Assembly (NCBI RefSeq): GCF_000003815.2
Contig: NC_049984.1
Coordinates: forward strand, 12,705,186 to 12,769,185
Direction of reading: 5' to 3'
Source: Branchiostoma floridae
Lineage: Eukaryota; Chordata; Leptocardii; Amphioxiformes; Branchiostomatidae
DNA length: 64,000 bases
In this document: piece by piece, positions 4,174 through 58,000 of the stretch
How the letters are laid out: every line of letters starts with the position of its first letter
Position numbering within the stretch: the first letter of the stretch is position 1
The notes under the pieces: model-generated
What the model saw: the letters and a program-made list of their open reading frames with translations, nothing else
What the model was told of the DNA's origin: nothing
The model's database searches: none
Position numbers and translations under genes: made by a program

Positions 4174-7100
4174 GTGCTGTACGTGCTGCAGGTGTATCAG
4201 AATGCTGATGATGGGAAAGCAGGGATCGTCTCCCTCGCAGAATACCTCCTTACCCAACCACTGCTCTCCTTTGCCATCGCTGACGCGTCCCTGCGTAAGT
4301 TCAAGTCTGTCAATGCAGAGGTGGAGGTGGAAGAGGACATGACTGGAGGTATGGCAACTTTCATGCTATATATCAGTCAAGTTGAACACTACAGATTGAC
4401 AAGTCAGAGCTGTCTACATCTTGACATTTTTAGCTTGAGTCCAAACTTCATCCCTTTTACTCCAATAACAGAAGTTAGGCAATGGGAGGGTTGATGATTC
4501 AACAGTCACTGTTTTGGCAGGTTTGGAACGCCTCCTATCAGAATGAAATGGCATAACAAGTAGATTTGTTTTTTTACAATCTGTTGAGAAGTAATCCAAC
4601 AGAAGATTAGTCAAATGCATCAATAGAATGATCAACTGTTATCATCTCAGGTAGAAATTATAGCATCATGTACTTTTTGAATGCAATGTTTGGTTTGCTA
4701 TGGGAAGGCATAGAAGAGCTTTAAGAGCTTGTGCAGAAAAGTAAGTATTAATGCTGTGTCCATGTACAGGTGAAGGTGACCATTCAGCTTCAAATGACAC
4801 TGGTGTTCTCCTCAAGCTGTTCTGTGTGCACACAAAGTAAGTTGTCAATGTTTCTGTCAATTAGGATGCTTTCTTGTCAACATTTTACAACATATTATGC
4901 AGTCCTGTCACTTGGTCCTCCTCTGCTTTGTGTAATCCTTGATTCATAATTAGAATATGATACAAGATTAACAGTATGATTTAAAACAGAAGAAAACACG
5001 TAAATCACATTTTGTTCTTTATCTATTAAATTCATGGAGTGATCTGTCAATCTTTGTATATCTAGCAGTTGCAGTGTGGTCACATGCCTCTGATGGAAAG
5101 AGGGTGTTACTAGCTTAGTTTTGGTTCAAGTCCAAAGTGATGCTATTACTACCATATGTGACCTAGTCCTGTACACTGCTCTCAGACATGAGTACCCACC
5201 CTACACAAGCCTGTAGATTTTAGATAATATCAAATGACCTTCCATTTTTTATGCATTTATTCACACGAAGATGAGTACATTTGGAAAGAATACTCATCGC
5301 CCATGGACAGTCATGTTTCTTGGCTGAAATATCGGGGCTGTCTGCGGTTTGCTTTTTGACTGTTAATGAGGTTTTCTAGCACTGTCAACATTTCCCAGTT
5401 AAATTTAGTGTGAAAAAAATAATTGTTTAGCTGTGGTGGAGATCTCATGATGCTGTAATGAAAATTGGCTGTTCTGTAATTTCTCTTCATTTGATTGGAA
5501 TATAGACTGGTAAATGTGGTCTGCAGCTGTGGCCAATGCAAGTTCAGACATGCCATGAAGCCTCCAACCTGGAGCCTGCACTTGCCAGGCTATTAGAAAT
5601 GATGAGCATGTTTATCTGTTTGGTAATACGCTCTCACAGTCAGCCTTCTGGGATAATGCCCATCAATCTGAGGCTAAACAGATGGAGTGATTATTGGATC
5701 AGTTCTAAACCTCAGGAGGCATAGGATCAAGGTCATAGTAACATCCAATGTCAAACAAAAATAAAAATCATAACCAGTCCCCTTTAAAGGATAATTTAAG
5801 TGTGTTGAAACAACAATAATCTTATGCAATTTAGAATGTCCTTATATTTGATCAGTTTGAAATCTCTGGAGGCAAAATGTGAAGGTCATACAGTAGGAAC
5901 GTCCATTGTCAGACAGTTTTGAAATTAATCATAATTAGTACTCTTTAAAGTGTGTTGAAACAACAACAATTCTATGAAATATAATCCTGATGTTTGATCA
6001 AGAATACCATGCAGTGTTGAAATGAAGCTTGCAGGTAAACTACCTGGTATGTAATAATCTAGCCATTTGACATCGAGGTATACATGTTGCTGAATCATTT
6101 ATGAGCAGTTTTGACCAGCTCACCTAGACTATTGCTTGACTGTACAACCTAGAAGCTCGGCATTTGACCTTTGGAATCCCAAAATCTTGTTAGCTGAAAC
6201 GTAATCAGTTACTGCAGGTTTTTACGGTTGCTTTGTAGCCGGAGGTAGAAAAACCAATCTTTATTACTTATTACAAGGCTGTAAGGGTTATTCCCCAACT
6301 AGAACAGGGTGAGAATCTCACAGGTTCTCCCCTGGGAAGGTGTTGTCATCAGGACCGTTGCAAGGGCTACCCACGGTTAATCGTGCCGTTTTGACTTTGT
6401 GTGATTGGATTGGCTTTCCAAATTAGCAGGTAGTGGATGGTTAAGTGTGATTACGTTTTGTGGCAGTGTGGACCGTGTGTGGTGATGAACTGAGGGTTGT
6501 AAAAAGATTTTATCATGGATGTGTGTGTGTCCTACATGAGGTGAGGAAAAGCCGTGATGGGTAGGCATGTAAAATCCTGAATGTCATTATGATACAGATT
6601 CATGTACAACATATACCTATAGAGATTCCTGCATATAACCTAGATTCTGATGATACCGTTGTTGAAATGCGTGTAGTTTTAACTTGAGGGCTTTACTTCC
6701 ATTCCTGACTGTCATCTCTGCCTTTCCAGGTCCCTTCAGGAATTACAGGTCAGGTTCAAACCAGCCACAGCTGCCTCCAGGCCGCACCAGCCCCAGTCTA
6801 TTGGCTCAGTCTCACAGGATGACATAGGTATGTATCTTGCCATCGTATTGTTCATTTCAGTGGAGGACAGTGAGATAACCTGTTGTTCAAACTGTTTATA
6901 ATGAGAATGCTTTGTTGTAGTAGCCTGGCCTGTTACATAAACCTTCACTAAGAAGGTTACATTTTTGTAGCACTTGTATGTACATGTATGTATGTGGTTT
7001 GATGGCATAATCTAGGATTAGCTACCCCTAGATTTTCATGAAATTGATTACAACTGTATGACTGTGGTAAGGTGTTGCCCTTTCAAAACAAATGTTAGAT

Positions 7101-10100
7101 TTGGGTCCCCAGGCAGCAGAACTTGCAGTTTTGATATCTCGTGTTCTGAACGTGCTATTGTTTTTGAGTGGTACATAGCTCTTATGCTAGCAGCTTCCCT
7201 TAGAACTGCTGGGGCACTGTAGTTTCAAATGTCAAAACAGAATGACTGAATTTTTGTCTAATTATATTATAAGAATATAGAGTGTTTCAGAAACATATTT
7301 TCATACATTAAAAAGATATGTGAAATCAGTTCCTTTTCTCTCGATCCCACAGCATTGCGAGATGGTCTATCTGACATGAGCGTAGAAACTCTGACAGACG
7401 CAGAGGGGTCAACCTCTGACCTGAGAGGTGAAGGGTCACAGGCCAGTCCAAGTGTCCTAGAGGGGAGAGCAGACAGGGAGGGGACGCCTGTAGCAGAGGA
7501 AACAAGCCCTCCGCCTGAAGACAATGCTGAAGAGCCCATGCTTCTCACTCCTGCTGCATTCACACATGGTACTGCATTGAAAATGTTTATGACACCAATA
7601 TGCAACATTTTCTAGTTGTATTCAACAATGATGAAATTGTCAATAAACATAAATGCTTGCCTTCTGATAGTATTGATCATCAAAAATCATACTTCCAGCT
7701 CTTTGTAAGGTAAGGCCATGTTGATTTGATAATATGGATGCTCATATTTCTGATGCATCATGATTCTGGAAACCCAAAAACTGATGCGGGTGAGCGAATT
7801 AAAGAAAAACTCAAACTCATGATTGAGACAAACTCAGCTCATTATGAGGGATACATCAATTCATTCCTCGATTCCACATGTTTTGTGAACTCCCATCCCT
7901 CTATCTGTCCCGAGCAGAAAGAGGCGACCACACTATGAGAAGTAGTGGCTCCAGCATGAGCAGTTTCACTGCTGTAACTCCCATGGGAAACTCTGTAGCC
8001 AACTCCCTGGATGGCAGCGCCTCCGCACACAGTGTAGCTGAACTGCAGGACATTCTCCAGGCTTCTCCTGAGAGCTCTCTGACACTGACACCAACTTCAA
8101 CAAAGCAAGGTTAGTTTAAACACCACAGCAAACAATGCAGCAATGGTAATATTGTACTTTTTTCTTGATTAGTGTAGTTTTTCTTCCCGTTGATGATGAT
8201 GATGAATTATGACGGATGAGACATCCTTTTATGGTAGCATATTGCATATTATCATATAGCCAGAGGAATGACAAATAAGAAGGCTCCATTTTGCCATAGC
8301 CACTGCCAATGTTACTTCATATTACCACTAATGAGTTCTCAACATAAATCCAACGTGACAGTCAAGTATAGTAGATGTGATCCTGTTACTCTCAACTGGA
8401 CCTATGACTTGACAAATGCTTGACAAAAGTTGTACAAGATTAAAAGATGTGTATGTTATATATTATACAGGACTTGTCTCACCCATGTGTTGGTTTGATG
8501 TATGATGATTGCCATAATGTTAAAGCTTTGTTCACTCGTGGTTTATTTGCTGGTTATAGGAACCAACCATGCCATGACAGTTTTCACCTTATTAACTCTT
8601 ACTCCCATTCCTAGGGACACCAGATGGCCCCAGCCATGTCCCCACCCCCACCACCCTGCCCCTACCTCCCCTCTCCCCACCAGAACAGAAGCCCCTCCCG
8701 CCGGCTGTCCACGCCCGCTCGCCGGACCTCATCTCCTCCACGTCCACCTCCACGGACACGCCCGCGGCCTCCGAGGCGTTAGAACAGATGTTCCAGCAGG
8801 AGAGCCAGCCCAGACCGCCCAGCTCAGGCTCCAGTCTGGAGGAGGTGCTGTCCCCCAGGCTCAGGGGGGCCGAGGGGATGTCACCCAGGGGCAGGGGGGC
8901 CGAGGGGATGTCACCCAGGGGCAGGCCTGAGGTGTGTAGGTCTTCTTATCACCTCTGTGAAAATTGGGGCAGTCAGTTGGTGTACTTGTTTCTTTGCTTA
9001 TTTTGGTGTGTATCTACAGTTGTATGATTATTGCAAAGTAGCAGGATGTAAGACGGGGATGCACCAGGTCTGTCCTACAAGCATCGTGATCAGTCTATGC
9101 TAAGTCTTTATCACCTTCCCACCAGGTTGCAGAGGAGGCAGAGGGCGCCACAGGAGGCGAGGAGAGACCAGACTCCGGGCACGAGCCGGTACAGGACGAG
9201 TACGGCTTACGGTGGCCTCGTGCGCCCGACATCACCATGGAAACGGCGCGGGACCGAGGTCATGTGGAGGAAGCCAGCAGGACTGCGCAGCCTGAACTGG
9301 TGGCCAGTCAGACCAGCAGTCCACCCAGGGAGCAAGACCTACATAATGGGCAGCCAATGGGCAGAAGGTATGGAGAACAGCTTGATAATTAAGTGTACTC
9401 TTTTTTTTTTTAAACAGTGTTTTTCTACTGTGTTGCAAAAGAATAAGACATGATATGTAATATAAAACAGTGAGATGTGACAAATGAGAAATTTTGGGAA
9501 TCCACAATGTCAGTAGTAGGGACATCCCTGTTGGTTAGCTAGTTAGCAGCCCGACAGTTGAGTCCTGGTTAGTTGGTAACTTGTTGAACCCAGTTCAAAC
9601 CCTGGTAAAATATCTCAGGAATACATAAAGTGTGTTCAAGGATAATCCTACATGGTTGTAAGGGGAAAGGGCTAGCAACATACCATTCCCTTTTACATAT
9701 CCAGGTACTGAAACTGCAAGGAATCTTTCTGACCTTTGTACCACTAGGCTCTACAAGGTAAACAACAACCACCACCACTGTCATGATCAATATCAATATT
9801 TTATAACAACAAGTGGTAGAATATGCTCTGCCCCCTACTGCTCCAGCCCCGAACTGCAGGGAGCTGCTGCCGCCCTCCCCACCACCCGCCATGACCAGGT
9901 GTTGCCAGGCAGGTCCACCCCACCCAAAACAGTGTCCCCCAGGGTACACAGAACAGAGGAGAACTACAGGGAAGTGGCATCTCCTCGAACACCACCCAAG
10001 AGGCAGGCAGCTGAGGTAAGGACTTTCTCAATCTTAGAATTTCCTGAACCTGTTCATCCTGCATTTCAATATACCAGTTCTGACACAATTAGCAGTTCAG

Positions 10101-13100
10101 CAATGAGAGAACAGCTATTAGCATAACCATTGAGAAAGTCCCTGCATGTCTGTCAAATAGGCATTTCTACATTTTGACAGAGGTAGCCGGTGCTATGGAA
10201 TCTGTCTATCTATTTAGCATTGTACAGGTCTATTAGTGTTGTGCCTGTGACTAAAGGTGTGGGGAAAAGGCTTGTAATGGGGATTTATGCCTCATTTGAG
10301 AAAAACCCTGATCAGACTCCTTGGCTAGACTTACAGATATTGAAGGCTTGCGACAAGTTGTATACTGTAAATCATAAACAGCCCCTGTCACCTGCAATTT
10401 GAATGTACGTGTAATATGCAAAAGCCAATATTATTTACATTTACACTGGCTGATTAAACTCAATTTCTACAACTGGATAAGATAGAAAGACGCCCATAAC
10501 TCCTCTTCAGCATTTGTAGAAATTAGCAGAAGGAGTCAGTACTACTATTACATGAGATGTAGCTGGAAGAAGAGTGATGGATGTCACTCAAATCTTCTGC
10601 AAGGGATCTTTGTATCTTATCCTGGGGTTGGGATTGAATTGTCTTGTGGAAATTGCTGAAATTTATCATCTCCATGTACAGGTATCATCAGCCCAGCTGG
10701 AGCAGGTGCTGCTGTTGCTACGGCAACAGCAGCAGGAGCTGGAACAGCTGCGGGGAGATGTGCAGAAGCAGCAGGCTGCCAACCAGGCTGTCCTGACACA
10801 GGCTGTCACACAGCAGCTCAAACAGCTGCACGTGTCCACAGGAACCTCTGTGGATAAGGCACTGCAGCAGCATACACAGGCAGAGAGTATCCTTCTGCTG
10901 TAGGGATGTGCTAGGATGGTGTACATGTTCCCATTTTATTTCTGAATCTGGTAACATTAGAAAAAGGAAAACAGGATGTGTGAGTTGGATCAACTGGTTA
11001 TTCAAGACCCAAAACAAGCAGTGTCCCTTTACATGTATTCATCACCAATGATGTGTCCTTGCAGCACTGTGGAGTGTATCCTGGTCACCCCTGTCGCATC
11101 ACAGAGAAATTTCCCCTTGGCAATGTTTAGGATAAATCAAAACCATTTCAGTATCTTATTTAGGTACCAGTTCCTTAACCAGACTCCCCAGGGAAACGTC
11201 TGGATGAGGCTCTTCGTGAGCGGCAGGATCTGGACAAACAGAAGCAGGAGCGCCTCCTGTCAACCGTCTCCCAAACCCTCAACTCCTCCATCACCTCCAA
11301 ACTGGAGAAATGTGTGAAACAGGAGGTCAAGAACAGCGTCCTCCCAGGTAGGAACTGGAACTGATGTCTTGTTGGTTTGTTTGTTTGTTTTTGTTTCCCA
11401 TAACTGGTAAGTTTTGTACATGTACAGTAAGTACCTTCGGAGTAAGACTTAACTGTAAGGTTTGATCCACTGACCCCAGGATGGACCACTACTCTTTTGA
11501 ATAGATATGAATATGTATGAATGTGGTTAGTTCTTAGTATGCTCAATGTAAGGCTCTTCTTAAACATAACACCTCCAGCTTAACACCCTATTCAAAAGTA
11601 ACTCCCTAACTGAAGCAAAGTACTCCAAAGTAAGAATGTGGAATGAATGCAGTTTCATTGAATCAGTGATGTCTATGTTCAGTGTAGATATATTAAATGG
11701 TTGTTAAAATGGTAGCAATTGATTACATGTCTGAGATAGATGATTGATGCAGTTGAAGTTTTCTTAGTCACGATGTGTTACTAACTTATAACTAATTGGT
11801 CTCTCTCATATGGCAACTGTAGCTGTGACCAAGTCCCTGGACCCAGTGAAAGACCAGTTGAACGTGACCATGGCACAGAAGCTCACAGCAACAGATTCAC
11901 TCATGAAGGAAAATATCTCCAAGTTGGTCCGTGCAAAAGTATGTGTATTTCCTGTGTTCTTTAGCAAATAGTATACAATAGGTATGATGCTTAAAAAACA
12001 CAATGGCGACATTTGGATTAGAACCAAGGAAATGCTGGTTAGGGACCTTGTTGTTGAAGTAGGTTAGAAATGTTCTTAAATGATTAGTGTACAATACTAA
12101 TAGTACAGTATACAGAGAACACTAGTATTTCAGGGATTTTAAAATTTTCCTTAACATACAATGTACTACCTGCAATCCTGTATTAGTTCTGGGGTTATGC
12201 AGCAAGAAGAAGATTAACACACTGCCCACAATCCTACCCTTCCAGACTACTGTCGAGGCCATTGGTCAGTCTGCAGCCCAGGCTATCCAGGGTCCGGTCC
12301 AGGCTGCCTACAAGGATGCCTTCCAGTCCACCGTAGTGCCCATGTTTGAGAAGGCGTGTCAGTCCATGTTCCAGCAGATCAACGACACTTTCCAGAGAGG
12401 CACGCAGGACTGTAAGTAACTGGTGGTGGTCACTGGGGGTTAAGAATTTGCATAAAACTGCGGAACAAAAATTGTAGCTGATGTAATTGTACAAAAACAT
12501 GATTGATACCTACCTGATTATAACATTGACACGCAAGGCTAGTCAGTGTTTTTGAATTGTTACATTGTATATCTACAGCACTATTTTCAGTATTGCTAAT
12601 TTGCCATGAATGTAAAATCATGAATGTTGTGCCGACAAATCTTCAGTCAGGTCAGTTCAGTTAGTTGATAGTATGAAGTCAGGAGACCGGAGGTCTCCAT
12701 CTTGGAGGCCAACATCCTCCTCGATCATCTACTTAAGGGTCAGCGATGGTCGACCGTGCCTTCGTTAAATCTTACACTGTAGACATGCTGTGTCTGGCTG
12801 TTAACTGCAGTTCCGTAGTATCTTGCTATGTGGTGTTTCTGCAAGTTATTTGATGTTTTCTCCTGCAGACCTGCAGCAGCTGGAGGCGCACCTGGCGCAG
12901 CAGCGGCAGAGACAGCAGCAGGAGCGCGACCCAGTGCTGACCCAGCTGCAGGGCCTGGTGGAGACCTTCAACAGCAGCGCCTCACAGCTGCAGGATGGCA
13001 TTACTGCAGGGGTCAAAATTGAGCTGGAGAGCCAGCTACAGTCCACCATTCTCAAGTAAGTTCTTGTGTTTTCAAAATAATTAGTATTAAGTTCTCTTGT

Positions 13101-15215
13101 TTGGAATCATCACTGGCTCTATTCAACAATTGTATATAGTTGATATATTTATCAAAACTTGTTATACTCAGTATTGATTTTGAAGACTTGAAGTTATGGA
13201 AGTACAATGTACATTAAATTTTGTACTTGTTTTAAATAAGATAGTAAACTTAGCTGTGCAGTCATTTGTTTGTTTGTTTGTGAATGTAAAAATTATGAAA
13301 TTTTGAAAGATTTGTACTTTTGTCTTATCTGCAGATGTAAAATTTGTAAATGCTAAAATAGCTATGGCAATTAGAGGTCAAGATATGCCAGAAACAGTGC
13401 TGCATTTGCTCCCCAGTTTCGTACAACGTCTAACTAAGTAATATTTTTCTCTATTCTTCCAGCATGCAAGATGTTCTGATCTCCCAGGTGCGGAGAATTG
13501 TGAGAGAAGAAGTTTCCACAGCGCTGAAGGAGCACCAGGCAGCCCTAGGGGAGAGCGTGGTACAGGCCATGAGATCCAGAAATGTCACACCAGTACCCAC
13601 ACCACAGGCAGACACACAGCAGTTACAGATGCAGATCATGGCACTGCTCAGGCAAGGCCAGTTTAACACTGCATTCCAGCAGGTAAGGGTACACATTTCT
13701 CACCAAAACAATATATGTATTAGCTCTGAGATCTTTTTCAAAAGATGAAACTCCTTCGGAAGTATCTTAGCTCTTTTTTTTTCATATAGGTTCTACTTGA
13801 TTCTGAGGTTCAATTTGGTATCACAATTTAAGATGGGCATTTTGGGTCATTATACCAACGTTTTACTTCTTGTTGATTTTTGCTCACATTGCAGTCACAT
13901 TCGTTGTTTGTCATTGTACAATTTTGATGGCATTACATAGAGTTTTCAAGCAGGCTCTGATAGAGACAGTTGCCAACAATAGTCTAAAACAGCCTCTGAA
14001 TTAACAAGACAGCTAAAGTTTGTACGATAATTCTTGCATCTGCTACAGGCCCTGACAGCCTCCGACCTGAGCCTGGTGATGTTTGTGTGCGAGGCCGTCA
14101 GCCCTGCCCAAGTCTTCAGCCAGAGTCCCTGTCCCCTCCAGCAGCCTGTCCTGCTGTCACTCATCCAGCAGCTGTCTGTGGACCTGACACACAACACAGA
14201 ACTCAAACACAGGTAATACTCTCTGTCCATCTGACACACAACACAGAACTCAAACACAGGTAAAACTGTCTGTCCACCTGACACACAACACAGAAGTCAG
14301 AACACAGGTAATACTGTCTGTCCACCTGACACACAACACAGAACTCAAACACAGGTAACACTGTCTGTCCACCTGACACACAACACAGAACTCAAACACA
14401 GGTAACACTGTCTGTCCCCTGACACACAACACAGAACTCAAACACAGGTAACACTGTCTGTCCACCTGACACACAACACAGAAGTCAGAACACAGGTAAT
14501 ACTGTCTGTCCACCTGACACACAACACAGAACTCAAACACAGGTAACACTGTCTGTCCACCTGACACACAACACAGAACTCAGAACACAGGTAATACTGT
14601 CTGTCCACCTGACACACAACACAGAACTCAGAACACAGGTAATACTGTCTGTCCACCTGACACACAACACAGAACTCAGGTAATACTGTCTGTCCATCTG
14701 ACACACAACACAGAACTCAAACACAGGTAATACTGTCTGTCCACCTGACACAGAACTCAAACACAGGTAATACTGTCTGTCCACCTGACACACAACACAG
14801 AACTCAAACACAGGTAATACTGTCTGTGTAGTATTGCTGTTACCTCTGATAGGGGTACTGTTTTTGGTTGTTTATATGTTTCCACACATAAGTCAAGATT
14901 CTTTTGATGTATTTTTTATGAATTTTGGCGTGTAGTTTTTGAGGTCCCTAAGAAATATTGCAATTTCTAGCCTCCTTGCAGTATTTTTTGTTCTATGAAG
15001 ATATCTGACATCTTGTATGTTATTTTCTTCGCAGGTACCTTGAAGAGTCAGTGATGAACCTTGACCTGACCCACCCTGTCACATGTGACCATGCCGCCGT
15101 CGTCCTCAGTGCACTGTGCAAGAAGCTTAATCTATTCATCCAGTCAGAGCCCAACCATAAAATGATTAAGAACATGCGCATGTTAAACATGGCTGCTCAG
15201 TCTCTCATGAAGTAG
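4174..15215 (+). CDS. EDC4: Enhancer of mRNA-decapping protein 4 (Ge-1/Hedls), C-terminal 956 codons, 5' part outside window
   Basis: EDC4 is the P-body scaffold that links DCP1/DCP2 decapping to mRNA decay. Sixteen exons join with consistent phases: 4174-4348, 4770-4836, 6730-6827, 7353-7568, 7918-8109, 8615-8931, 9126-9367, 9847-10015, 10682-10886, 11192-11347, 11823-11938, 12246-12411, 12869-13055, 13463-13682, 14049-14212, 15035-15215 (TAG). The first exon begins VLYVLQVYQNADDG, the segment that follows the WD40 propeller in vertebrate EDC4. Next come a short LLKLFCVHTK strand, a long Ser/Pro/Glu-rich linker with the conserved SPDLISS and WPRAPDIT motifs, a Gln-rich coiled coil (10682-13055), and the conserved C-terminal helical domain (ALTASDLSLVMFVCEAV, PVLLSLIQQL) used for partner binding and P-body targeting. 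The match with vertebrate EDC4 is nearly collinear. N-terminal exons are missing because the window starts inside the gene. The exact acceptor of the 11192 exon is ambiguous (see findings). Confidence 0.95.
7705..7800. repeat. GTAAGGCC-family MITE fragment in EDC4 intron
   Basis: TAAGGCCATGTTGATTTGAT, then a GATTCTGGAAACCC segment, matches the reverse complement of the right arm of the element at 24551-24729. It is a single arm only, about 120 bp before the exon at 7918. Confidence 0.5.
8862..8921 (+). repeat. 30-bp in-frame tandem duplication in EDC4 exon
   Basis: Two near-identical 30-bp units (8862-8891 and 8892-8921) encode a doubled GAEGMSPRGR decapeptide in the Ser/Pro-rich linker. Because the unit is a multiple of three, the frame is kept. 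Confidence 0.85.
14181..14826 (+). repeat. 47-48-bp minisatellite built from an EDC4 exon end and its splice donor
   Basis: The unit is roughly CACCTGACACACAACACAGA, then ACTCAAACACAGGTAATACT, then GTCTGTC. The first unit is the real 3' end of the exon ending at 14212, with donor GT at 14213. Thirteen more AGGTAA donor-like sites follow at about 14258, 14305, 14353, 14399, 14447, 14494, 14541, 14588, 14637, 14678, 14725, 14764 and 14811. Some units are shortened, and positions 4-5 of the donor vary (GTAATA, GTAACA, GTAAAA). Confidence 0.95.
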
Positions 15216-19356: not shown

Positions 19357-21519
19357 TCAATTACGGCTGGCCTTGCCCCCGCGGGCTGCACTGACATTGG
19401 TGAAAAGGGACTTAAGGGTGTCGAGCTCCTTGGTCAGAAGTTCCACCCGCTTCTGGAGCTTCTCGTTCTCCTGTTGAAGTTCTTGGACCTGCAGGGAATG
19501 ACAAAAGGAACTGTTAGCTAAGAGCCCACCTCTCATCCGCAGTCTTAGATCTACTAAAGGTTGCAGTGTATCAATTCACGCTTACTTTCAACATCATCTC
19601 CTACTTCCAATGTCAACACATGAAACAAAATACTTCAATGTCCATCAATGTACAGTTATCACTTAATTCAGAGACTGACATGCATACACTTTTATGAAAG
19701 GAACAATGGATGATAATCTGATAGTTAGAGATACACACCTTCTGCTGAGTTTCCAGATTGCGCTGCTTGGCCTTCTCGCGGGACTTCCTGACCGCAACGT
19801 TGTTGCGCTGGCGGCGTGTGGTGTACTCCTCAGTCCCCTTCTGCAGGGCCCGGCGTCCACCACGAGATGACTGTGCCTTTCCTGGTGCTGAGGGAGGTAA
19901 AGTGGACAGGTTAGATAGTCCAATGAACAAAGTTGTGAAAAAAGGACAGATAATAAGACATATGATCTATATACTATGGAATCCCTTTTCACGTTATGAT
20001 GGAGATAATGCTACATGATGTATTGTCATTTTGGCATCTATAAGAAGCATGCTTGACTTTCAGGCTCTTTGACTTGTCATGTGTGTCCCAGCTTCCTCCT
20101 CACCCCATGACCTCTTACTACTGATGTTGGCACAAAGGGGCGTGTTAGGGGAGGGGGTCCCACCATCCACCGGCTTTCCCAGAACACTAGAGTTCTACTC
20201 TTGGACACAATTTCATCCCCGCCTTTAGGATTGACATTTTACAACAAGTCTGTATCTAGAAGATCTCTACTCGAAATCTAAAATACAGTATTTTAACTGA
20301 GAAAGAGCAGAAATTATAATTTTTTTAACGTCACATGAAGTCTGCCCTGGGTACAAAGGGTACGTGCCCGGCATGGGAACTATCACCACGTGGCGCAGTC
20401 CGGCGTCCTACTCGATTTTATCAACCAAATGTTAAAATTCACGTTAAGAATGTATACATCAATTCTGAAACATGTTCCTACCTGGCCTATTCTCCGATGG
20501 TGATCCGATGTCACTACTTGGCGAGGCGTGGGAACTTGCCGAGTAGTCCTCCTGGAGGTAGACGGGCTCTTGCTTCACCGGCACCGAGGCGATGTCCGGG
20601 GAGGCTGCGGTGGTGGTAGTGGGGGTGTTTGTGGCCGGGGCTTGCGTCGACTCGGACGTGAGCTGCGGCATGTAGATGTCGTCTAGTGCGTCAAATGGAT
20701 CAGGCAAGGCCGGAGGTGCTGCTACGGTTGGGGTGGCTCCGCTGTCCGAAGACTTGGAGAACTTGTCTTTGTCCAGATCGCTCTTGGAGAGGCCCAGCTC
20801 AGCCAGGAGGTCCTCACCACCCGAGTCCAAGTGCCACCGCTTTGCACTTTCCTGGAGGGAAAAGGAGAAGTGATACTTAATTAAGGGAAATAAAAATAGA
20901 CGATTCTTGTACTGTCTTCTTTAAAAGCTCTATTTTTGTAAAGTTCTGTAGAAAAGAGGCTAGCGAATTTGTACCATATGCACAAAGGATCCACGAAGGA
21001 CACGTTACTTATGTAGATCACGCAGGGTGAGAAAGGTGAAAATTCATGAGACACAATATTTCTGTGACATACCTGAATGTAAACACTTAAATCCACGGAG
21101 TCCTCGCCGTCACAAAGTGTGCTGAGGTCCGGGAAACTCTGCTCGCGCTCGAAAGTGAATACCGTTTTCTGTTTGCCGGTGGATTCCAGTTCATAGAAGT
21201 TCGCGGGAGACGAGACCGGAGTCGGGTCCATCTCTGCGCGGTGACATGACTGATCCTGGCCGAATGAGAAGTCGTGGAAAGCCGTGGTTTCTGTTGGGAA
21301 CGTAATAAAACCTTCTCGGGAATGTATGTTGTCGGCGGGATCGTATTGTCCGGCCGAGTGTCCGAAATTGTCACTGATTCTGCGAGTATAGCCTGGAAGA
21401 GCTGTTAGTTCGGTCATCAACGTACCGGTGATTTCGCAACAAGAATGTAACCGGGTGACGACGGCTCGATTTGTAGCAACGTCACAGGTTGCATTACTTA
21501 ATTGGTCCTTCATACCCAT
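19357..21519 (-). CDS. CEBPA: C/EBP alpha/beta-type bZIP transcription factor, complete, four exons, 365 aa
   Basis: This is a nuclear DNA-binding activator that dimerises through a leucine zipper. Exons (minus): 21519-21073, 20851-20482, 19887-19739, 19488-19357; phases 0, 1 and 0 all fit. The start is the first ATG after an in-frame TAG; a second Met is two codons later. Residues 141-149 (DSVDLSVYI) match the conserved C/EBP transactivation motif DLSAYI. Exon 2 has VPVKQEPVY, a likely SUMO site (VKxE) as in vertebrate C/EBPs. The bZIP is residues about 292-356: [20 protein letters not shown] as basic region, then [16 protein letters not shown] and a heptad zipper. One intron splits the bZIP exactly at K|V, at the start of the zipper. 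The symbol marks the class: one gene like this may be pro-orthologous to vertebrate CEBPA, B, D and E. Vertebrate CEBPA/B/D are intronless, so the three introns are notable. It lies head to head with the C/EBP gamma gene. Confidence 0.93.
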
Positions 21520-22084: not shown

Positions 22085-23460
22085 GCATGGCTCTGGTACT
22101 GGTGAGGTTGTAGCTTGTCTAGGACGATTTTCTCCGATTACACGCTGTGTTCTTGGATAATTTTACTACGACAGTATACTTCGATAACTAGAGAACATCT
22201 GGGGGCGTTTTGGCACGTGAAAGCTACGCGAGGACGCTCTTCTACGGGCCCAGAAAAAAGGTAAGCTCGCCACCCACGCCCGCCCTGCCCCCCTGTGTGT
22301 AAACACGTTGGCGGGATCGGTTGTAACACCGCATGTGCAAACTGTACTGAAATGTGTTTCTTTCCTAGTTTTCTCAATATAATGCTAAAATTTCCGTTAT
22401 GTCAATAACTAATAAAGACAGATAACTAAAACATACTATGAAATTATTATTTTACTCCGTCACATCGATATTTCGTCACCGAAATTTGAAAGTTGTCTCT
22501 TGTAGAAATTTAAATTTGCAATGGGCCCCGCCTTTAATGCATTGCTGACCCTAGCTAGGGTGAATGGGGCAGGCGATGGGGTATGTGTGTTTCTGGGCTT
22601 CCATTTCTAATTTGGACGTGACTTGTGGGTCTGTATACCATCAGAACCACTCGTAGCTTTAATCAAGAACCACATGGCATTACTGATGTCATCAGAAATG
22701 TGGTTTTTAACCAACTAAACATGACCGAAGATTTACACGATTCGACATTTCAGCGTGCGTGACATGCTCCCTTACCTGACGTTTTTACAGCAGAAAATCC
22801 GTTAAAATGATCCAATTGAATGCCTGCACGGGATTACCATTTCAGATGATAATATTTATGAAAAACTTTCGTACAACATGGATTGAAGTTAGCCCTTTTA
22901 GCGGGGAATTTGAAATAAATGGTTGGCCATGCCCTGCTGTTTGTTTACAGAAAACTGGAATGATGTAACGCCTACTACTAGCACTGTGTAGTAGGGCGGG
23001 TGTCAGGTGTCAGCGGGGCGCACGTGGTTATATGCCAGTAACCATTCTGATTGTTTTCCGTGACCAAACGGACCTAGATATTATACTAAGGGCAAAACAT
23101 GTACAGGGCACCACATAATTTAAGTCCGTGTGGTTAAAAAAAATCAAACATTTCTCTTTTGTGTTTTTTACAATTTCCACAATATCCTCACCTGAATCTT
23201 CATTTTTTGTCGCTGACTTTTGATTACTCTTGAAAATAAAATTGCGTATATTATAAACAATTTCTAAGCTGATTTCGATGGGATAGGTTCACGTAATGGT
23301 ATTGTAGTGTCGTCTTTTTCATGTTTTTGACATTTTTCTTTTGTTTGTGTTTTTCAGGTCGACATCAACTTTGGTGTTTGATTTCTGTTGTGTTGAAGGA
23401 CGAAGTGCTGAACATCTCTGATCTGTCTGTCTCAAGTGCCAGAGTACCTGTCCCAGCTTC
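22085..23460 (+). other. CEBPG: 5'UTR of the C/EBP gamma gene with one intron
   Basis: A good donor (AAAAAAG|GTAAGC, GT at 22261) and acceptor (TTTTTCAG| ending at 23357) bracket a 1,097-bp intron. The second exon (from 23358) has no ATG before 23461. A non-coding first exon followed by a single coding exon is also how vertebrate CEBPG is built. The 5' end (about 22.09-22.15 kb) is a guess. Confidence 0.5.
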
Positions 23461-24057
23461 ATGGCGGATATTGATGTTAAAAGTGAGCCTACTGACTCCA
23501 GTGACAGTAGCCCAGGGTCGCCCCCTGTCCTTAGCCCAGGCACCTCATCTGGTGGGAGAAGGGGCGGCGGAAAGGCATCCAAGAAGTACCTGCATGACAA
23601 AAATAGTGATGAGTACCGCAAGCGACGGGAGCGCAACAACTTGGCGGTGAAGAAGAGCCGTGACAAGAGTCGCCAGAAAACCCAGGAGACTCTCCGTCGC
23701 GTGCAGGAGCTGAAGGAAGAAAATGAGCGCCTGGAGCTCAAGATCAAAATCCTGTCCAAGGAACTTAGCGTACTGAAGGATCTCTTCCTGTCGCACGCTG
23801 GCAGCTTACCGGGGGAGGACGCCCCATGCCTTCTGGGGGGAGTTACTGCAGCACCCCTCCCCATGTCCACTCCTGCTGAGGAAACCAAAAGTTCGTCCAC
23901 TGCGACTTCCACCTCCAACATTTCTCTTTCAAATGGGACTATCAATGCCACAGTACGAGAAGTAGCAGGTATACTTCAGGGTCTAGCTGTGCCAGTTAGG
24001 GCGAATAACCAGGCTGTTCTGAATGACCATGAGTATGCAACCACTGTGAAGTCATAG
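23461..24057 (+). CDS. CEBPG: C/EBP gamma bZIP transcription factor, complete, 198 aa
   Basis: C/EBP gamma is a nuclear bZIP protein that heterodimerises with other C/EBPs and with ATF4; it lacks a strong activation domain. The coding region is one exon. After a short Ser/Pro/Gly-rich N-terminus, residues 47-110 carry DKNSDEYRKRRERNNLAVKK then SRDKSRQKTQETL and the zipper VQELKEENERLELKIKIL with KELSVLKDLFL. The NSDEYR...RRERNN, VQELKEENERLE and KELSVLKDLFL blocks are diagnostic of the gamma type. VKSEP (residues 6-10) is a possible SUMO site. At 198 aa it is longer than human CEBPG (150 aa), mainly in a Ser/Thr-rich C-terminal tail. It is divergent from the C/EBP alpha-type gene, as in human. 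Confidence 0.95.
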   Translation: MADIDVKSEPTDSSDSSPGSPPVLSPGTSSGGRRGGGKASKKYLHDKNSDEYRKRRERNNLAVKKSRDKSRQKTQETLRRVQELKEENERLELKIKILSKELSVLKDLFLSHAGSLPGEDAPCLLGGVTAAPLPMSTPAEETKSSSTATSTSNISLSNGTINATVREVAGILQGLAVPVRANNQAVLNDHEYATTVKS

Positions 24058-55000: not shown

Positions 55001-58000
55001 TTAACCTCTGATGACAAGTCTAAAACATATGCAGACGGATAACAAGTGAACTACTAACATCTGCAGTAGGCATGGTACAACTGGCAAATACATCGTTATG
55101 CCTCGAAATACTGTGTCAAAATTGAAGCTTGCTCCTGATTTTTTTTATAGTTTGAACGCATCGGTGAACTTAATGTTAGTATGTCAGCATATACCCTAAT
55201 CATTGTTTGCGCTGAGCTTGCCTAATAAGCATTCCGCATGTTTTGTAGACACTAGAGGTTTATCGACATTGCCTACTATTAGTGTTCTTCACGTTTGGCT
55301 GCCCTTTCATTTAATGAACAACAGTTCCAAACTTGAATGGTTGAATGTTGAAAACGGATGTATTTTTCTTGTATTTGTTTGTCTTTATGCATATGTGGGT
55401 TCGCAGTGATGTGAATATTGCAAAGTGTTAACATATTAGTGAAAGTGGTGCATTAGGATACTTGGAGGATTGGAAGTAGGGTTTGGCGTGGGTCCAAGTA
55501 GTTGTAGTTGTAGTTCAGAGTCAAGCAGATGCATGGCTCCCACAATAATGTCACATCGTTTAAGGGTACCTACTATGAGCTTGTCACAACGCTATTCAGC
55601 TATATCGTATCAGGCTCATATAGCTCCATATGCTAATTTCTTGCGGCACTGAAATGAAGGAGATGTGTTTAGGCTTGTTGACCCTGTGTCATTTGATTGC
55701 TCCTGAGACCTTAACGTTGACCGTCCAGCCTTNNNNNNNNNNNNNNNNNNNNNNNNNNNNNNNNNNNNNNNNNNNNNNNNNNNNNNNNNNNNNNNNNNNN
55801 NNNNNNNNNNNNNNNNNNNNNNNNNNNNNNNNGGGGGGGGCACACACACCCACACACACATACATACATACACACGTACACATACAGAGGCACACACACA
55901 CAAACATGCATTCACACGTACACATACATACGCGCACGTGACAAACACACACACACATGAACACACACTCACAAAGAAATATTTTGTCCCACTCTTTTTT
56001 GTCGACTGTTTGCGCAGTAGAACGAACACCATATGTTTCAGCAAAGTTTACTTCTACCCAATCCATGTAGCGTTATACTGTTACGTTTTAGCATCTCCAG
56101 AAACTAACCCATCATCCGATCACTGCCTAACATCATGCTTTAACTGCCTACGTGTAAAACCCTGCTACACCGTTCATTTTGCCACCCACTGTCATCCCTT
56201 CATGTTAATCGGCTTCTGTGTGTGTGAGTGGGTCGAGAACGATAAGGACGTGAGTTTAACATGTACTAAGGGCTACGTCACTTTTTCAAACCGAGGTCCG
56301 GCCGGGCAGCTTTCAAGAACGAATTGTATGAAATAAAAGACTTAACAAGACGTAAAGAGAATAGTCGTGGGCATTATTCATATTTTATGTGTACATTTCT
56401 ATTTTTCTTTTCCACAAACAGCCCGACCGGGCCCCGGTTTGGAAATGTGACGTTTGCCTTAGTAATGTTCAGAACCTATCTGCGGGTTCCATGAAAGGAC
56501 ATTTGACGTAAAATTTGTGCACGTGGATGGTGCAGAAGATATGTGACGGCAGACCGTGTCAGCAAACCGGTCTGCTATCATGTCAGAAGTATCGTATCTA
56601 GATATTCGCAATGAAGACACTCGTAAACAGTCGCTGGAATTAGAAACTGTCAATGTAGATGTCACGGTCAATGTCATCTCGCTGACCGGTTGGCCCACAT
56701 CCGCGAGTGCACCATAACTTTATGGGGGCTTGGGGTGTGGACAAGGTATAAAGAAAGAAAGAAGTGAAAATGTGAAAAAAATGATAAAGAAATTGCTGAA
56801 AAGAAAAGTGCACTAGCTTATCCTATCTAGCTAACCCTTTTCTCTACACCACAAAACATCTCGCTAATGCACTGAAATTGTACTGTTCTGCGATATGACA
56901 TTGAGGTAACAGGTTGTTTCGCAACAATGTCAGTTTGCAACCGTCAGTTCGCAACAAGACAAGTCTTTTCGCAACAAGGTACAAGTCGTTTCGCAACATT
57001 TTAACGTTATTAATCTTGATAGCCTAATAGTATTAGGAATCGTAGTGCTAACATAATTGTATTCCTTCCACGTAAAAATCTTACCGGGTGCGAAAGACAA
57101 CCACGGCGGAAGAGGAACATGGGGCCGTATGGACCTGACAGCCCGATGATTTTCATACGCCGGGTGGTACAGTTTCATACGCGGCGTGCACAGGCAGGAG
57201 TATAATTATGTTAGGAATACGATTTCTAATACTATTAGGCTATCAAGATTAATAACATTGAAATGTTGTGAAACGACTTGAACCTTGTTGCGAAAAGACT
57301 TGCCTTGTTGCGAACTGACGGTTGCGAACTGACATTTTTGCGAAACAACCTGTAACCGACATTGACTGTCTCGAATGGCAACGGCGGTTTATAAGACGGA
57401 AATCTAAGCGCCATTACAGAAGTAGGTCTAGGCGTTAGCACTCTACGTGTGCCTTGTGTGCACCAAATTAATTGATGCTTGTAAATCGGAAAGGTAAGAG
57501 TGCAAAGGTTGCCAGAGGATGGATATTGAAGCCAGATGTACATGTCAGCATTAATTCAACGGGAAGGGTTGCAGGCACACATGTGACAGTGGTGTCGTGA
57601 ATTTTGTCCAAGTTTTCGCCTCCTGCCTTATTGACTGCCTTCATCTGTCAACGGTTTGGGGTTAGATAAGATTTTGAAAATTGCTATCATCTCATTCCTG
57701 CACAACAAGTTGTGACAACTTTTTAATCCTTTCATTATCATCATTGTCGTCACCATCGTCCGGTCTTTCAACCGTAAAGGGTACATTAAGTGTCCTACGG
57801 AGATCTCATTCTGTATAGATACACATGTTCATGCACATTCTCCTCCACGACTCTAGCCCGCCCCTATTGGGTAGGCTCAGCCCTAAACCGGACTGAGGTT
57901 TCCGAGAGTTAGCTTTCAGCCAATCGGTAAATCGGCTTTACGTAAAGAAAACATTCAGGCGATTCTGTGGTGATTCAGGTGGAAACCTCAGCCGGTTTAG

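Follow-up and report, generated by a model that had tools for sequence, protein, structure and literature searches.

The EDC4 gene and its last intron

The window, that is the whole 64-kb stretch of DNA analysed here, carries an amphioxus gene for EDC4, for which 16 exons were placed by eye from position 4174 to 15215. The joined exons make up an uninterrupted reading frame of 959 codons, whose only stop is the terminal one. Residues 830–950 of the joined model match the Pfam family EDC4_C (E=2.4e-48), the only family to pass in the Pfam search of the model, and the penultimate and last exons joined by themselves also match it (E=1.5e-42). At its 3' end the gene is organised as follows:

14049..14212, + strand, penultimate coding exon, 164 nt, ending ...LTHNTELKHR, with its frame in phase with its neighbours
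14213..15034, + strand, last intron, 822 nt, the second longest of 15 in the exon model
15035..15215, + strand, last coding exon including the stop codon, from the exon model

The start of the last exon at 15035 is the one given in an earlier first-pass annotation of this DNA.

A tandem array across the exon–intron boundary

TRF finds a single 656-bp array at 14172–14827 (period 47, 14.2 copies, 91% matches, score 1094), in agreement with the minisatellite that the first-pass annotation had placed at the exon end, although its limits of 14181–14826 were slightly short at the 5' side. Cut at CTGTCTGT, the array falls into 14 units followed by a partial one:

14172..14218, + strand, array unit 1, which holds the authentic donor, GT 14213 (TRF and unit cut)
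14219..14819, + strand, array units 2–14, intronic, with 13 decoy donors (unit cut)
14260, 14308, 14355, 14402, 14448, 14496 and 14543, + strand, decoy donor GTs of units 2–8
14591, 14639, 14680, 14727, 14767 and 14814, + strand, decoy donor GTs of units 9–14

This cut agrees with the earlier placing of the authentic donor in the first of 14 units, ahead of 13 decoys. The unit size of 47–48 bp given then has to be widened to 40–48 bp, the lengths in order being 47, 47, 48, 47, 47, 46, 48, 47, 48, 48, 41, 47, 40 and 47 bp, with a mode of 47. Unit 1 consists of 41 nt of the exon 3' end and 6 nt of intron, which puts the exon–intron boundary inside the tandem repeat. The motif CAGGTAA (CAG/GTAA, with the slash at the splice site) is present in 14/14 units, as had been said of its last six bases, AGGTAA; the 64-kb window holds 19 copies of it on the + strand (14 of them inside the array) and one on the − strand.

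Between units there are substitutions, a single inserted base and 7-bp deletions of two kinds, and all 13 intron units carry CC where the exon unit has GG. Six of the 48 alignment columns are variable overall and none of the seven of the donor core; with most columns invariant, chance by itself yields such a core with P=0.37, and we rejected it as evidence of selection on the decoy donors. In a search of the assembly (513,431,437 bases, 431 contigs), the array DNA matches this locus only, in the window at 12,705,186–12,769,185 of its contig.

For the remaining 14 donors of EDC4, TRF and a repeat finder showed no further array that copies a donor, and the sole other array in the gene lies at 8842–8931. 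It is made of three 30-bp in-frame units of the type GAEGMSPRGR and stops exactly at an exon end (donor GT 8932), with the donor itself left uncopied.

Origin of the array

The two edges of the array are marked by a short direct repeat:

14172..14180, + strand, presumed seed CTGTCTGTG, exonic copy, a 9-bp exact match to 14820–14828
14820..14828, + strand, presumed seed CTGTCTGTG, intronic copy at the 3' edge of the array, an exact match to the exonic copy

The bases to the left of the two copies do not match, and an exact 9-bp match confined in this way to the two edges is what would be expected of a seed for the first duplication. Judging from the sequence, we propose, as a point new here, that this 9-bp direct repeat, whose copies bracketed a single unit length, is the probable seed of the array. 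CTGTCTGTG would have stood once in the exon and again 47 bp on in the intron, and slippage or unequal exchange would have duplicated the segment between the two. Repeated rounds, in some of which two units were copied at once, would then have led to 14 units. Since the unit pair 3–4 is identical to the pair 7–8, and units 9 and 10 are equal and have a variant in common, the later rounds copied one or more units at a time, in a presumed order of events. The intron has its own acceptor and, after subtraction of units 2–14 (601 nt), 221 nt of sequence, and therefore predates the array.

Relation to mirages and other repeated donors

Amphioxus arrays at an exon–intron boundary have been named "mirages" and were first reported for Adh3; two globin genes, BflGb6 and BflGb9, were added later, and in the excerpted report the Adh3 data and the globin RT-PCR suggest that mirages do not interfere with regular splicing (PMC3087553). 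The same excerpt gives two haplotypes with 6 and 3 mirage units and proposes a route to new introns (PMC3087553). A further paper, also as excerpted, adds a PGBD5 mirage, cites troponin C and again gives regular splicing for amphioxus mirages (PMC3902484).

As far as these excerpts describe them, the mirages of Adh3, the globins, troponin C and PGBD5 resemble the EDC4 array in that they span the exon–intron boundary, hold AG/GT in many units and have the authentic site at one edge, with an Adh3 unit of 10–72 bp (PMC3087553, PMC3902484). The EDC4 array differs from them in lying in another gene, in its 14 units, in involving the 5' splice site and in the in-frame stop that follows the first donor. 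It is a further example of the known mirage kind, in EDC4. A literature search on amphioxus and Branchiostoma minisatellites found no EDC4 paper, which is no proof of absence from print.

A comparable arrangement is described for the human ABCA7 intron 18 VNTR, with 25-bp units in 12 to about 427 copies (PMC5954066). In the excerpted account, the VNTR, like the EDC4 array, begins at the GT of the authentic donor and multiplies that donor, whereas its unit is shorter and without copied exon sequence (PMC5954066). Frameshifting ABCA7 isoforms amount to 14 ± 6 and 2 ± 1%, the second being taken here as unit retention; retention of one unit is given as a minor isoform unaffected by VNTR length, while longer alleles show more exon 19 skipping and lower expression (PMC5954066). 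The Rogers model of intron gain, as set out in the excerpt, is akin to the EDC4 case because duplication of an exon segment with AGGT (AG/GT) supplies splice signals (PMC4974935). In EDC4, by contrast, an intron with its own acceptor was already there, and no new intron or exon is evident.

Minisatellites elsewhere in the genome

The genome was sampled at round coordinates in 20 pieces of 10 kb each, with 22,688 positions being N and 177,312 bases readable, and TRF arrays were kept if their period was 25 or more and their copy number 1.9 or more. This yielded 28 arrays covering 10,056 bp, or 5.7% of the readable bases. Two of them, at loci L012 and L022, look like donor mirages on the basis of an open frame plus a donor, a number that counts those recognised and is not a rate, as the other arrays were examined less closely:

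L012, 2786-3637, mirage-like array with six AAG/GTTTGT donors at intervals of 144–148 bp, all preceded by the same open frame
L022, 2511-2936, − strand, mirage-like array of 2.5 copies with three AAA/GTA donors at 168-bp intervals, following a calmodulin-like exon

The L012 frame has no Pfam match and a best PDB match of E=0.6, and its status as an exon therefore rests on the open frame. For L022, the likeness to calmodulin comes from the PDB search only; Pfam returned no EF-hand match for this frame, just weak matches to other families.

With a matrix made from the 15 EDC4 donors placed by eye, 13 of the 28 array unit consensuses hold a donor-like site at least as strong as that of EDC4. Dinucleotide shuffles give 11.0, and 44 of the 200 shuffled sets have 13 or more; a preference of minisatellites for donors is thus unsupported. 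Donor-like motifs are not enriched in array units and minisatellites are dense, so that mirages look like by-products.

Three other features of the sample may be recorded. In L012, reading through the first decoy stays open, and retention of one 144-bp unit could add 48 codons with no stop. In L023, a 172-bp array (328-966) has copies 97% alike, of which only the last, read on the − strand, stays in open frame across a site at which two additional bases are present in the others; this is perhaps an exon boundary too. An 87-bp in-frame array in L025 (7239-7751) lies within a long frame with leucine-rich repeats.

Donor strength and RNA structure

Donors of the array were scored with a small matrix built from the other 14 EDC4 donors, placed by eye. 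The authentic donor scores 5.42, above just 2 of these 14, whose scores are flattered because they are the training set. Among the decoy 9-mers, 8 of 13 are identical to the authentic one, four score higher (5.76) and one, the nearest decoy, lower (3.25). In U1 pairing energy the authentic donor, at −8.1, is outdone by 3 of the other 14 EDC4 donors. The 9-mer gives the authentic donor no advantage, and the sequence of the site therefore does not explain why the first donor would win. In vitro, of two strong equal donors in cis, the intron-proximal one tends to be favoured, which would predict more decoy use than is proposed here.

RNA structure in the array might shield or expose donors in such a way that the first one wins. 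CTGT, able to pair with an ACAG that precedes the GT, stands after all 13 decoys, and the authentic donor alone has CTCT. Its 9-mer also has the highest predicted open probability of the 14 donors in three settings (0.090 versus at most 0.048, 0.054 versus 0.031, and 0.036 versus 0.021), which drops to 0.057, 0.028 and 0.023 when position 14221 is changed in silico from C to G. However, the gain in openness is less than twofold, and the opposite substitution makes 8 of the 13 decoys more open but the other 5 less open. Moreover, the fourteen other EDC4 donors range from 0.0002 to 0.094, so widely that the differences between array donors say little. With an effect this small and inconsistent across the in-silico tests, we rejected structure as the cause of first-donor choice and regard it as very unlikely.

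Removal of units 2–14 in silico brings the predicted openness of the authentic donor down to 0.020, 0.004 and 0.003 in the three settings, because the donor can base-pair with the post-array sequence (z about −1.5 to −2.1). As the other EDC4 donors cover the same range of openness, we draw no conclusion from this removal.

As a separate observation, at 14805-14870 of the window the post-array sequence is predicted to fold onto the last of the decoy donors (−19.3 kcal/mol, z −2.06); before the expansion, its partner in such a fold would have been the authentic donor.

The 20 nt before the AG/GT of the units have a pyrimidine share of 0.30–0.45, against 0.75 for the true acceptor. Recursive (ratchet) splicing and micro-exons made from units were ruled out, since these acceptor-like sites are without a strong pyrimidine tract.

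Consequences of decoy use

Splicing from a later donor leads directly into a stop:

14214..14216, + strand, in-frame TAA, read as AG/G TAA, met by every transcript spliced from a decoy donor

Because the penultimate exon ends in AG, reading through the authentic donor gives AGG TAA, and the position of this stop confirms the earlier claim that any later donor meets TAA at once. According to the frame, all 13 decoys are predicted to give an identical protein, which lacks its final 59 residues and with them about half of the EDC4_C domain. The usual decay rule applies to a stop more than 50–55 nt before a junction. The distance from the stop to the new junction is 91–597 nt for 12 of the 13 decoys and 43 nt for decoy 14260, which falls short of this limit, so that it alone may escape decay. 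According to an excerpted review, Dcp2 and Xrn1 are bound by the C-terminal part of human EDC4, and in Drosophila EDC4 an invariant arginine is required for P-body localisation (PMC8984151).

Interpretation

We read the EDC4 array as a mirage minisatellite seeded by a direct repeat, with the first donor used nearly always, a small leak to decoys and little effect, and give this reading a probability of about 0.86. Almost all splicing would go to the upstream donor, the one adjoining the full exon, near-exclusive use being most likely by analogy with the reported systems. A few percent or less of the transcripts would use a decoy, perhaps 14260, and give EDC4 without the last 59 residues; with little effect from this leak, the array would drift in copy number. 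It is most likely a by-product of dense minisatellites and not a switch.

Of the first-pass interpretation, the multiplied exon end and donor stand, as does the ending of the protein by later donors, and the preference for the first site holds by precedent only, as given in the excerpts (PMC3902484, PMC5954066). Its suggestion of autoregulation is unsupported: nothing in the anatomy speaks for it, and the same architecture appears at two unrelated sampled loci.

We consider it very improbable that the array acts as a splice dial tunable by copy number, with allele length setting the balance between full-length EDC4 and a form without the C-terminal helical half. If it did, the short form may escape decay and mRNA decapping would vary between lancelets, and, with mirages dense in the genome, many genes could be tuned at once.

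It also seems scarcely probable that the decoys form a splicing-to-decay switch, in which high EDC4 or decapping capacity would shift splicing to later donors and, through the stop at 14214, lead to degradation. Every decoy does yield the same in-frame stop and 12 of 13 lie beyond the 50–55 nt of the decay rule; yet the nearest may escape at 43 nt, the donor core shows no sign of selection (0/7 columns variable, P=0.37), the same design is seen in sampled loci other than EDC4, and EDC4 is a decapping scaffold and not a splicing factor able to read a donor. A literature search on EDC4, XRN1 and alternative splicing, not aimed at autoregulation alone, found no report of EDC4 autoregulation by splicing.

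An assembly artefact, in which reads of the repeat were stacked into surplus copies, is barely credible: such arrays are hard to assemble and one globin mirage was misassembled in a draft, as the excerpted report notes (PMC3087553), but the units differ from one another by substitutions, the inserted base and the two 7-bp deletions, and the contig around the array is of chromosome size (28.1 Mb). The true number of units may differ somewhat from that assembled, while the existence of the array is hardly in doubt.

As a mirage, the EDC4 array offers a clean natural test of donor choice, with up to 14 equal donors, the true one being the most distant from the acceptor. Should mirages prove as frequent as this small sample implies, many such natural tests with copy-number variation would be at hand, and they would become a way to ask how the spliceosome picks among equal donors and how minisatellites could give new exon ends or introns.

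Other features of the window

In the 64-kb window, no Rfam family reached threshold and no tRNA was found. A run of 100 N at 55733-55832, an assembly gap, adjoins a CA-rich stretch. A bZIP frame at 23422-24057 (Pfam bZIP_2, E=2.7e-14) is C/EBP-like by eye, and a frame similar to it lies on the − strand at about 19613-20010.
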